From positions 62,001-126,000 of the forward strand of contig JACIXZ010000003.1 of assembly GCA_014360205.1 (NCBI GenBank): 64,000 nucleotides of DNA, written 5' to 3'. The notes below the pieces were generated by a model, which was not told the DNA's origin, did no database searches, and saw nothing but the letters and a program-made list of their open reading frames with translations. This DNA comes from Tissierellales bacterium. Its GTDB lineage: Bacteria > Bacillota > Clostridia > Tissierellales > Tissierellaceae. Positions 9,094-54,846 of this stretch are shown here, in pieces. The first letter of the stretch is position 1, and each line of letters begins with the position of its first letter. The translations under genes and the position numbers were made by a program.

Positions 9094-9121
9094 AAAAGCT
9101 AGACCATATGGCCTAGCTTTT
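9094..9121 (-). terminator. Terminator after the baeRF-like gene
   Basis: AAAAGCTAG and CTAGCTTTT arms (9094-9102, 9113-9121) enclose an inner CC/GG pair. The stem overlaps the stop codon of the upstream gene and is followed on the minus strand by an AT-rich tract with a short T-run. It separates that gene from the malQ promoter. Confidence 0.65.
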
Positions 9122-10268
9122 AATATCTTAATATTGCTGATATAGGTTTTTCTACAGGTAGATTTTCTTTCTCCATTACATAAACTTTTCCACCATTAAA
9201 CAATGTCTTAAGAGCTATATAATCCAATAAATCTGTATTTGAACCGACTTCTTCATTAGTTACTTCTACTTCAAATTTTTCTTCATCAAACTTCCCAAAC
9301 AGTTGATAATCCTCTGCTACAAAAAGAGTTTCGACATTTCCGCTATAACTTAATTTTACTAGTTCTTTTGCTTCTTCACAAACGAGTTGTGGATTAGCAT
9401 TTTTCAATTCTAATAATCGATTTTTATCTTTATCTATATGATTTTGTATTATTTTTGAATATATTTCTACTGCTTTTTCATGAACTTCTTTTGGTTTTAC
9501 ACCTATTGGGCTGCCTTTGATATATTCATCTAATATGTTTTTATATGAACTTACTTCCTTGTACATAGAGTATATATATTCAACACTGTAAATAATCAAA
9601 GGTTTTTTTGTGTCACTGATTAGTTTGCAAACTCCCTTATCTATATTTCTAAATAAATTGGATAACTCAATTTTCTCAGTTTTGCTCAGTTCATGAAGAC
9701 TGTGCATTCTGCCACCAAATCCTCTTGCAGCACCTTTGGGACTAGTTGCTTCTTGATGTAATTCATTACCTGGGACAAAATCTCTTACCAACTCATCTAT
9801 CTGAGGAGCTTCTATTTTATTTATCTCAAAAGGAGTAGCTTCATATAAGTTAACTTCCTCTTGACTAAGTGTTAAGATATAAAAATCTGATAATTGAGTA
9901 AAATATTTTAATAGTGGTCTTATATAAAATCTATTTGATACAATAGACAATTCTTTAAATTTCACAGGAAGTGAAAAATAAGTAAAGAAATCATCTGATA
10001 AAAATATTGCTAGTCCATCTTCTTGATATTGCCAAAATATAGTTTCATCTACTAATCTGTTTGCTGGTTTTAATAAATTATCTATATCTCTTTTGTTATA
10101 GCCTAGACTAGATAATTTCTTTTCTACCTCATTAAGTCTATTCTTTAAAATAATTCTATTTTGGTTTACTTCGATGCCAGCTCTAAAGGTAGGCATATAA
10201 ATAGATATCAATGCCCTTCCTTCGAAATTAGACAAATTCATTATAGTATTGAGTTCAAGTCTTTTCAT
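9120..10268 (-). CDS. Bacterial eRF1-like (baeRF family 3-type) protein
   Basis: This 382-residue soluble protein appears to be a bacterial member of the archaeo-eukaryotic release-factor superfamily (baeRF). Recognisable blocks are the N-terminal ISIYMPTFRAG, FWQYQEDGLAIFLS (about 80-95), FYILTLSQEEVNLYEA (about 130-145) and the C-terminal LFNGGKVYVME ... AILRY. I see no GGQ tripeptide, so peptide-release activity is not supported. The biochemical role of these bacterial proteins is not established; ribosome- or RNA-related functions have been proposed for the superfamily. ATG at 10268 is preferred over 10274 because the GGGGGAG site is too close to the earlier ATG. It stands alone between terminators. 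Confidence 0.7.
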   Translation of the reverse strand: MKRLELNTIMNLSNFEGRALISIYMPTFRAGIEVNQNRIILKNRLNEVEKKLSSLGYNKRDIDNLLKPANRLVDETIFWQYQEDGLAIFLSDDFFTYFSLPVKFKELSIVSNRFYIRPLLKYFTQLSDFYILTLSQEEVNLYEATPFEINKIEAPQIDELVRDFVPGNELHQEATSPKGAARGFGGRMHSLHELSKTEKIELSNLFRNIDKGVCKLISDTKKPLIIYSVEYIYSMYKEVSSYKNILDEYIKGSPIGVKPKEVHEKAVEIYSKIIQNHIDKDKNRLLELKNANPQLVCEEAKELVKLSYSGNVETLFVAEDYQLFGKFDEEKFEVEVTNEEVGSNTDLLDYIALKTLFNGGKVYVMEKENLPVEKPISAILRY

Positions 10269-10361
10269 CAGCATCTCCCCCTTTATTATTCGTAGTCAAT
10301 ATTAAACTGTCTTATATAATAATTACCACATTTAACCTATTATAAACACTTATAAACAATA

Positions 10362-10390
10362 TTGTATAAAAGCATTTAAGATGTTATAAT
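10362..10390 (+). promoter_or_regulatory. Promoter of the MerT-like selenoprotein gene
   Basis: A perfect -10 TATAAT (10385-10390) is preceded at 17 bases by TTGTAT (10362-10367). Transcription would start within or just before the CsoR-like palindrome, about 25 bases before the gene. Confidence 0.6.
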
Positions 10391-10395
10391 ATAAC

Positions 10396-10414
10396 AAACC
10401 CCGTATGGGTATGG
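10396..10414 (+). promoter_or_regulatory. CsoR-family operator-like site
   Basis: ACCCC-GTAT-GGGT followed by ATGG is a G/C-tract dyad with a 4-bp core in an otherwise AT-rich intergenic region. It resembles the known operator of copper-sensing CsoR repressors (TACCC-core-GGGTATGG). It lies between the -10 box and the ribosome-binding site, where a repressor would block transcription. A regulator of the CsoR/RcnR/CstR group sensing copper, another thiophilic metal or persulfide is inferred, and none is encoded in this window. Confidence 0.5.
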
Positions 10415-10423
10415 AGGTGCTAT

Positions 10424-10723
10424 ATGAAAGAGAAATTAATGGGTTTATCATCAATATTAACAGCTCTATTTGCTAGCCTTTGCTGAAGTGGTACGCTTAT
10501 ATTAGCAACCCTAGGTCTAGGGTCTTTAGGAAGTGCTTATTTTTCAAATATGACTCAATATAAACCTTTATTCGTCTTGATAACAGGGATCTTGATTTAT
10601 AAAGGCTATACTCAATTAGAAAAAAAGAAGGCTTCAAAATCTACTAAAGTGTTTTTCTATGTATCTTCGGTTATAGCAATAATAATGCTATATCTGCCTA
10701 CTATAATAAGGTTTGTGAGCTAA
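10424..10723 (+). CDS. MerT-like small membrane transporter, probable selenoprotein (in-frame TGA = Sec)
   Basis: ATG at 10424 follows GGAGG by six bases. The frame reads 20 codons, meets TGA at 10484-10486, then stays open for 78 more codons to TAA at 10721, giving 99 residues with TGA read as an amino acid. The product aligns by eye with mercuric-ion transporter MerT: a Cys-U pair where MerT has Cys-Cys at the end of helix 1, then LILATLGLGSLGSAYF, a YKPLF motif matching YRPIF, helix 2, a Lys-rich loop and helix 3. A SECIS-like hairpin follows the TGA. A likely role is import or handling of a thiophilic metal or selenium/sulfur species through a selenolate-thiol pair. Simple pseudogenisation is the alternative, but the promoter, operator, ribosome site, frame and terminator are all intact. 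Confidence 0.75.
10484..10523 (+). other. Bacterial SECIS-like element
   Basis: Downstream of the in-frame TGA, ACCCT (10508-10512) pairs with AGGGT (10519-10523) around the six-base loop AGGTCT. The loop is the same as in the E. coli fdhF SECIS as I recall it, with G in the second loop position. It begins 26 bases after the TGA, within the usual bacterial range. The element would bind SelB and direct Sec insertion. The host needs selA, selB, selC and selD, which are outside this window. Confidence 0.65.
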
Positions 10724-10751: not shown

Positions 10752-10777
10752 TAAGTCTAGCCTTTTGGCTAGACTTA
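10752..10777 (+). terminator. Terminator of the selenoprotein gene
   Basis: A perfect 11-bp stem (10752-10762 with 10767-10777) closes a TTTT loop 28 bases after the TAA. It is followed by a short T-containing tract. It supports transcription of the whole TGA-interrupted frame as one unit. Confidence 0.65.
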
Positions 10778-24118: not shown

Positions 24119-24135
24119 ATTATCAACTTCATATT

Positions 24136-24290
24136 TCTTTTAAGGTGTACTACTTAATAGGGAAATGCGTGAAACGCTGCAGCCCCCGCTACTGTATGTG
24201 GTATGCTTATCATTTATCCACTGTAGCTTTGCTATGGGAAGGTTTGATAAGTTTAAGCCATAAGCCAGGAGACCTGCCTTAAAGACTATG
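24136..24290 (+). promoter_or_regulatory. Cobalamin (AdoCbl) riboswitch
   Basis: Conserved B12-box elements occur in order: AATAGGGAA with GCGTGAAACGC, then GCAGCCCCCGCTACTGT (24178-24194), an internal stem region ending in GGGAAGG, and AAGCCAGGAGACCTGCC (24261-24277). These are the core of the B12 riboswitch. It controls the adenosyltransferase, DUF4430 and S-component genes downstream through the terminator at 24349-24373. Confidence 0.95.
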
Positions 24291-24348
24291 TTTTACTTTC
24301 GGAGGGAAAGGAGGAAACAAGAAACAATTAGTTTTATATTGTATTTTT

Positions 24349-54735: not shown

Positions 54736-54760
54736 AAAAAGCTGCTTTAAAAAGCAGCTT
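54736..54760 (-). terminator. Riboswitch expression-platform terminator
   Basis: AAGCTGCTTT pairs with AAAGCAGCTT (10 bp) immediately 3' of the c-di-GMP aptamer on the minus strand and is followed by TTTTTG. It stands about 95 bases before the surface-protein start, so it decides expression of that gene. Confidence 0.8.
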
Positions 54761-54762
54761 GA

Positions 54763-54830
54763 CTGTCCTGGCTAATAGCTTTAGACTCATGGCTTTGCGT
54801 CCTTACCTTTCGATAAGTTTGCCAATTTAC
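54763..54830 (-). promoter_or_regulatory. Cyclic-di-GMP-I (GEMM-I) riboswitch
   Basis: The minus strand reads GGCAAAC, CGAAAGG with its GNRA-type loop, GGACGCAAAGCC (the family hallmark), GTCTAAAGC, then GCCAGGACAG. These are the P2 and P3 elements of the class I c-di-GMP aptamer in order. It lies in the leader of the 1096-residue surface protein, directly followed by an intrinsic terminator. Whether binding turns the gene on or off cannot be settled by eye. Confidence 0.9.
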
Positions 54831-54846
54831 AAAAATAATATTTTTA

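Follow-up and report, generated by a model that had tools for sequence, protein, structure and literature searches.

What does an in-frame TGA mean in a short gene for a MerT-like membrane protein: a reading frame that has broken, or a codon for selenocysteine (Sec), and in the second case, what might the protein carry? The question is raised by a 64,000-nt stretch of DNA (hereafter the window; G000:C23:62001-126000), which comes from a host genome of 1.98 Mb in 78 contigs. In the reading frame of this gene (merT-Sec), an ordinary list of open reading frames (ORFs) contains only 10550-10723. A previous reading of the sequence alone (the sequence-only reading) had held that a TGA breaks a gene of 99 residues, and translation of the TGA at 10484-10486 as U bears this out, yielding 99 residues, U at position 21 and a TAA stop. 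The features of the locus, in window coordinates, are the following.

10385-10390, + strand: possible -10 box TATAAT (from sequence; absent from the promoter scan output)
10396-10412, no strand assigned: putative operator of CsoR-family type, AAACCCCGTATGGGTAT, matching ATACCC-N5-GGGTAT at 11 of 12 bases, just upstream of the Shine-Dalgarno sequence (from a pattern score)
10413-10417, + strand: Shine-Dalgarno sequence GGAGG, 6 nt before the ATG (from sequence)
10424-10723, + strand: merT-like selenoprotein gene, 99 codons and TAA, Sec at codon 21 (from read-through translation and conservation in relatives)
10481-10486, + strand: TGC-TGA, the Cys20-Sec21 pair (the same TGA in all 21 copies, the host's own included)
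10508-10523, + strand: bacterial SECIS hairpin ACCCTA-GGTC-TAGGGT, loop 10514-10517 (from codon constraint, and pair changes in wider relatives)
10753-10776, + strand: perfect inverted repeat AAGTCTAGCC-TTTT-GGCTAGACTT 3' of the gene, without a T tail (from sequence; not accepted by the terminator scan)

The TGA codon and its conservation

The Shine-Dalgarno sequence and the CsoR-like operator that had been reported are both present in the sequence, and the promoter and terminator fared less well. A perfect TATAAT is in place, but the hexamer 17 nt upstream of it, TTGTAT (10362-10367), is poor, agreeing with a TTGACA-type box at 3 of 6 positions, and the promoter nearest to the gene was absent from the scan output. 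The terminator was not borne out: the scan found no T-tailed terminator after merT-Sec, and the inverted repeat there is not followed by a run of T.

The gene was sought in 120 genomes, comprising the host's own and 119 relatives. Matches were obtained in 22, one of which (L022) was dropped after reading as an EamA-like chance match, and merT-Sec is thus present in 21 of the 120. The other 20 copies are 33-79% identical to the window protein. Every copy has a single TGA, always at the same codon, and no other internal stop, so that the random frame damage expected of a decayed gene was not seen in the relatives. A search of 391 genomes at the level of the class returned 11 matches: four already known, two that were dropped as chance matches (L060 and L061) and five new copies. 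Three of the new copies have TGA (L055, L058, and L059) and two are Cys-Cys forms (L056 and L057) with TGT at the Sec codon position, which places the TGA on the second Cys of the pair, as had been proposed; the Cys-Cys and Cys-TGA homologues that the sequence-only reading had suggested looking for are therefore both found. The copy L043, from an Alkaliphilus MAG, also has TGA at this codon.

The sequence 3' of the TGA is constrained as protein. In all 11 pairs compared, pN was below pS over this region (pN 0.06-0.14 against pS 0.09-0.76), weakly so in the closest pair, and dN/dS was 0.07-0.15 in eight pairs; of the other three, the two closest had 0.60 and 0.35, and one gave no defined value. 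The possibility that merT-Sec is a pseudogene broken by its TGA, which has on its side the splitting of the gene in an ordinary ORF search, is refuted because the TGA is common to 21 of 21 copies, the region beyond it is under purifying selection and the hairpin is conserved; we leave it next to no probability. Carriage on plasmids was also considered and rejected, as tblastn against 72,556 plasmid records gave no match at E 1e-3.

The host has the machinery for Sec, and the four genes named for checking (selA, selB, selC, and selD) are all present. Of these, selB (383.8 bits; G000:C12:5177-7069) and tRNA-Sec (75.4 bits; G000:C12:7950-8042) are above their cut-offs, and ORFs upstream of selB were read by eye as SelD and SelA, so that selD-selA-selB-selC stand together on this contig. 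Across the 120 genomes, SelB is above cut-off in 102 and tRNA-Sec in 101, with both in all 21 carriers of merT-Sec; Sec use is common in the order and is therefore not enough to set the carriers apart. The host SelD is, by eye, itself a Sec-containing protein, with an in-frame TGA (SGUAAK) in L025 just upstream of position 2771.

merT-Sec is a real gene, though one that is easy to miss; its product is small, of the membrane and related to mercury transporters, and is almost certainly a selenoprotein. An AlphaFold model of the product (pLDDT 62.1, pTM 0.41) is unusable and is the basis of no claim here.

The SECIS hairpin

As described in the portion of PMC13188914 that was available, the model of the bacterial SECIS element has a loop of 3-9 nt, a stem of 4-16 bp, a G in the first two loop bases, a spacing of 16-37 nt and a free energy of -7.5 kcal/mol or below. 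The window hairpin agrees with this model in its loop (the 4-nt GGTC), stem (6 bp), G position and spacing (27 nt); the isolated 6-bp stem, at -6.6 kcal/mol, is short of the -7.5 given there (PMC13188914). Folding of the 60 nt after the TGA gave -12.4, no better than shuffled sequences (z -0.06), so that little can be learned from the energy of this region taken alone. The sequence-only reading was right that a SECIS-like hairpin follows the TGA, and the hairpin is conserved, but its position is to be corrected: it begins 21 nt after the TGA and not 24-26, and its loop, GGTC, starts at 27 nt.

The evidence for the hairpin comes from comparison. Codon 30 is CTA or CTG in 19 of the 21 near sequences, against 59 of 279 other Leu codons (p=1.7e-10), and codon 31 is GGT in all 21, against 38 of 136 other Gly codons (p=8e-11); the hairpin codons are under silent-site constraint in the near relatives. 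RNAalifold recovered the stem from these 21 sequences, with no double changes, and Rfam at gathering scores had no match over the hairpin. Stem-keeping pair changes appear only in the wider relatives. When the near and wider relatives are combined (49 Sec genes), the loop of the best allowed hairpin starts 27 nt after the TGA in 34. Each of the 49 was also placed in the better of two loop registers, a procedure that favours pairing, and on this footing a 4-nt loop fits 27 and a 5-nt loop fits 22, with L058 and L064 fitting neither register well. All 22 sequences of the 5-nt-loop set form the closing pair, which is of five types (CG, GC, AT, GT, and TA), and 15 of the 22 form the fourth pair. 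Hairpins in the Cys forms (four in number) are weak and lie elsewhere in L056, L057, and L079; that of L078 has -6.8, at another spacing. From this conservation, UGA at codon 21 would be read as Sec by the host SelA, SelB, tRNA-Sec, and SelD, and the hairpin 21 nt downstream would direct that reading.

The apical loop fits two registers, of 5 nt in most of the wider relatives and of 4 nt in the copies from Tissierellaceae and a small number of other genes.

A family of MerT-like selenoproteins and its gene neighborhoods

The product had been said to line up with MerT along its whole length. This is so for the NCBIfam model merT_RC607 (NF033560), which covers residues 2-90 (7.5e-11, 42.3 bits, cut-off 130), but the Pfam model PF02411 covers residues 9-59 only (6.2e-6, 26.7 bits, short of its gathering score of 32.9). 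At E<=0.01, all 21 aligned family members match PF02411, and all 21 match both NF033560 and NF010314. In NCBIfam, the window protein is below the cut-off of every model and no dedicated short-form model was found for it; for the other 20 members, the NCBIfam comparison is by E-value only. The classical MerT of Tn501 and Tn21 has a second, cytosolic Cys pair. Like MerT of mer operons (NF033560, NF010314), the window protein is a membrane protein of short length that has a pair of residues in helix 1, but it is below cut-off for these models, has Sec for the second Cys and lacks the second Cys pair (C20 is the sole Cys among its 99 residues), and no mer operon surrounds its gene in the host. It also resembles the MerT part of the MerT/CopZ fusion-like selenoprotein MerT_CopZ_Se (NF045683, 235 positions), to which residues 5-66 match; the score is 30.1 bits against a cut-off of 375, and the fused HMA domain is absent here. 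As for the fusion itself, 0 of 398 genomes of the phylum are above its cut-off, and the matches listed are mostly to the HMA part.

In the same 398 Bacillota genomes, PF02411 has 26 matches in 21 genomes, 24 of them with one TGA at the same pair position, although counts over these 26 are not independent because they include three near-identical pairs (L072/L073, L074/L075, and L086/L087). The pair is CU in 14 of the 24 TGA rows and CxTU, CxSU, or CxAU in 10. The curated cut-off is exceeded in 9 of the 398 genomes, and the search missed the carriers G000 and G002; it therefore misses members like the window gene. In a 52-row tree, the two class-level Cys-Cys forms occupy separate places among the Sec forms (L078 was dropped, since its frame runs into unrelated sequence, and L079 sits on a very long branch, its position being uncertain). 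Sec is the usual state of the MerT-like family in the sampled Bacillota, and because the TGA makes an ordinary ORF search cut such genes in two, a mostly Sec-encoded family can stay hidden or mislabelled in this phylum. The occurrence of Sec in a small, transporter-like membrane protein suggests a use of selenium in metal or sulfur handling, as distinct from a classical enzyme active site.

MerT-family selenoproteins as a kind are already known, so that the novelty implied by the sequence-only reading is not supported: besides the NCBIfam fusion model, a selenoprotein named 'putative mercuric transport protein' (Pfam MerT) appears in the available portions of reviews from 2022 and 2026 (PMC9312934, PMC13188914). 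The latter gives the motif of the MerT-family selenoprotein as C/SxxU, with ABB16073.1 as its example (Table 1 of PMC13188914), and a 2008 paper on the GOS metagenome likewise lists a mercuric transport selenoprotein, with MerP among the selenoproteins of its table, in the part available (PMC2398784). The reviewed protein (PF02411) is, like the one described here, a MerT with one Sec, and its C/SxxU motif fits both S-L-C-U in the window and C-I-T-U in relatives; in the portions of the reviews at hand, no regulon, vicinal Cys-Sec pair or stand-alone Tissierellaceae clade is given, and ABB16073.1 is compared here by description only. A stand-alone MerT-Sec clade, its regulon and the CxxU-rhodanese pairing are likewise absent from the titles and abstracts of the literature matches listed (some of these lists being partial). 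What is new here is the prevalence of the TGA in Bacillota, the operator in the leader, the relative linked to MerA and the pairing of CxxU forms with a rhodanese.

Among Tissierellaceae, the copies examined are of a stand-alone gene, and no mer genes were recognized by eye near it in the 15 named loci (ORFs of at least 70 aa). The wider relatives have more informative neighbors. A rhodanese-domain gene lies directly 3' of the gene in 10 of 10 CxxU-type relatives, each confirmed by Pfam, against 0 of 14 CU-type relatives by eye within about 1.5 kb (Fisher p=5e-7, for rows that are related to one another). Glutaredoxin-like and Lgt-like genes are nearby in 3 of the 10 CxxU loci by eye, and one of the glutaredoxins was confirmed by profile. 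The CxxU loci with a rhodanese are L064, L067, L071, L074, L075, L076, L082, L085, L086, and L087, and several of their rhodaneses look like lipoproteins.

Links to mercury are present in other branches. L072 and the near-identical L073 follow a MerR-type regulator, that of L072 being above the mercury cut-off (170.6 vs 150.85 bits), and ArsR-like regulators precede L065, L069, L083, and L084 (the last confirmed by NCBIfam). In G052, the copy L021 heads an apparent operon with the order merT-Sec, HMA-like lipoprotein, Lgt, ArsR, MerA, and CopZ-type protein, in which Lgt, ArsR, MerA (559.5 vs 454.45 bits), and the CopZ-type protein are above curated cut-offs, and the HMA-like lipoprotein, MerP-like by eye, has an in-frame TGA of its own (GFSUASC). 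This locus looks like a Sec-containing mer operon. It lies at L199:1376-5245 (- strand) on G052:C83, its CopZ-type protein is an Fe-S protein, and recombinase-like ORFs adjoin it by eye. MerA is above cut-off in 2 of the 21 carriers (G012 and G052) and not in the host, where the best score is 352.7 bits against 454.45. The MerA neighbor of one relative and the mercury-type MerR of two favor mercury for the wider family.

The putative operator and the role of the protein

Leaders were scored over the 12 bases of ATACCC-N5-GGGTAT within 60 nt of the start. By this measure, 14 of 21 merT-Sec leaders, the window's included, score 10 or 11, and none is exact; in 7 of the 14, the match overlaps the Shine-Dalgarno sequence, and it is missing from the remaining leaders (L008, L009, L010, L012, L013, L016, and L021). 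The exact operator occurs at 41 sites, in 18 of 20 carrier genomes, and the reversed pattern at 3. By eye, the genes that follow the 41 sites encode a YruB-type glutaredoxin (16), a HesB-like selenoprotein (6), DUF302 (5), DsbD_TM (4), Fer4_5/ferredoxin (3), SBF (2), a TrxR-like protein (1), and others (4). For each of the seven named classes, one or two members were checked with Pfam or NCBIfam, and some sites are flanked by genes on either side (e.g., L094, L102, L104, L112, L116, and L124). The YruB glutaredoxin falls just below its NCBIfam cut-off (87.3 vs 88.55 bits), and the host HesB-like protein is also below (68.6 vs 85 bits). In the host, the operator of the glutaredoxin gene lies between TTGACA and TATAAT, the leader of the HesB-like selenoprotein gene has ATACCATAAGGGGGTAT, one base off the exact operator, and the two genes share one 7-kb stretch (L033). 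Other host matches fall within an ATPase gene and a probable RNA gene, and look like chance. The HesB-like selenoprotein gene is at L033:1422-1724 (- strand), and the exact operator is found with it in the relatives L121, L122, L103, L124, L125, and L126.

In the copper-sensing CsoR, a ligand His occupies the position at which another type of the family (C-Y-C) has Tyr. The host has two CsoR-family proteins: a C-H-C type on G000:C56, following copA-copZ, and a C-Y-C type on G000:C2, near which no metal genes were recognized. A paralogue of the C-Y-C type is present in 27 of 29 genomes, with Tyr in 26 of the 27 read and His in G097, and both Cys are kept in those read (the CsoR-family proteins L133, L156, L169, L173, and L175 were left out of this reading). 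G012 and G018 have neither the paralogue nor any exact site and keep the copper-type CsoR, which fits the C-Y-C protein as the regulator; the association has p=0.005, for two genomes that belong to one genus and are not independent, and of which G018 has a completeness of 88% and a contamination of 7%. In G097, where the paralogue has His, one exact site is nevertheless present.

Two-cysteine sensors of sulfane sulfur are known in the CsoR family, namely CstR and YrkD, as described in the available parts of PMC5480029 and PMC9918477. Their regulons likewise join a two-Cys CsoR-family repressor to sulfur or redox targets, and differ from the present case, so far as those parts go, in that the sites here precede scattered genes, selenoproteins among them (PMC5480029, PMC9918477). 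Neither sqr nor pdo was recognized at the operator sites examined. From these patterns, merT-Sec probably belongs to a thiol/sulfur regulon of the C-Y-C CsoR type, under the putative operator, and the way in which it appears to be regulated suggests a part in thiol or sulfur stress, and not in mercury alone.

The product would be a MerT-type protein of the membrane, small and helical, with the Cys-Sec pair at the end of its first helix. By analogy with MerT, this pair may bind a soft, thiol-loving species and pass it across the membrane. Its gene, with a near match to the operator in 14 of 21 leaders, would be controlled along with those that have the exact form (glutaredoxin, HesB-like selenoprotein, DUF302, DsbD/CcdA-type, and Fe-S membrane proteins) by a CsoR-family repressor with both Cys and with Tyr for the copper-ligand His, one that would respond to thiol or persulfide stress. 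On this view, an ancestor of mer type that contained Sec would have been recruited to serve as a conduit with fast exchange, carrying either sulfane sulfur or a soft metal bound to thiol. Taken as a whole, the explanation that we favor by a little is of a Sec protein in a thiol/sulfur regulon, serving as such a conduit. The substrate would be a soft thiophilic species, perhaps sulfane sulfur, and the more specific claim of a sulfur or thiol role rather than mercury or copper is a tentative one.

Several readings of the substrate were weighed. The resemblance of the putative operator to those of glutaredoxin, HesB-like, and DsbD-type genes, together with the link between CxxU forms and rhodaneses, leads us to favor sulfane sulfur or a thiol-bound soft metal. 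A narrower reading has a conduit for sulfane sulfur or thiol redox that works with an outer sulfurtransferase; it draws on the rhodanese-domain gene after every CxxU-type relative and no CU-type one, on the glutaredoxin and Lgt-like genes added in three of those loci (by eye), and on the host operator sites at the glutaredoxin gene and, one base off, the HesB-like selenoprotein gene. The window protein is of the CU type and has no adjoining rhodanese, so that the link is by analogy and a similar operator only, and we regard this reading as plausible while short of probable. A scheme of wider scope, which is unlikely to hold in full, would make the MerT-fold selenoproteins a Sec-based sulfane-sulfur conduit across the membrane of anaerobic Bacillota: sulfur from an outer donor of rhodanese type would move by way of Cys-Sec or CxxSec to the glutaredoxin and the HesB-like selenoprotein of the cytosol, a persulfide sensor of the CsoR family would turn the system on, and mer would be one branch of an older Sec family.

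A second possibility is a Sec-type mercury transporter that would bring in Hg(II) for reduction or trapping in the manner of a mer operon, as the MerA-containing G052 operon and the MerR before L072 suggest. For the window gene, this is doubtful. MerA does not reach its cut-off in 19 of the 21 carriers, the host among them, no mer genes were recognized by eye around the gene in the 15 named loci, the protein has one Cys besides Sec and hence no cytosolic Cys pair, and import of mercury by a cell lacking MerA would presumably be harmful. Among the functions offered by the sequence-only reading, plain mercury uptake is thus unlikely in the host because it has no MerA above cut-off and the protein no second Cys pair, and thiol or sulfur handling is the one favored by the operator.

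The third, a copper-handling protein under a copper CsoR, is improbable. The putative operator does resemble CsoR operators, and the host copA-copZ-csoR operon has a weaker, related leader, ATACCCGGTGGGGGAG, but copA follows none of the 41 exact sites by eye, and G012 and G018, which have the copper-type CsoR alone, have no sites. The resemblance of the putative operator to those of the HesB-like selenoprotein and glutaredoxin genes, together with the 10 of 10 pairing of CxxU forms with a rhodanese, offers a testable route to the roles of several uncharacterized selenoproteins.

Other features of the window may be recorded. Beside merT-Sec and divergent from it is a gene of 384 aa (9120-10274, - strand), which we take to be possibly of the bacterial release-factor-like (baeRF) family; a similar ORF adjoins merT-Sec in 5 of the 15 named loci (L037-L041). 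Elsewhere in the window, there are matches to a cobalamin riboswitch (24126-24295, + strand) and a c-di-GMP-I riboswitch (54750-54833, - strand).
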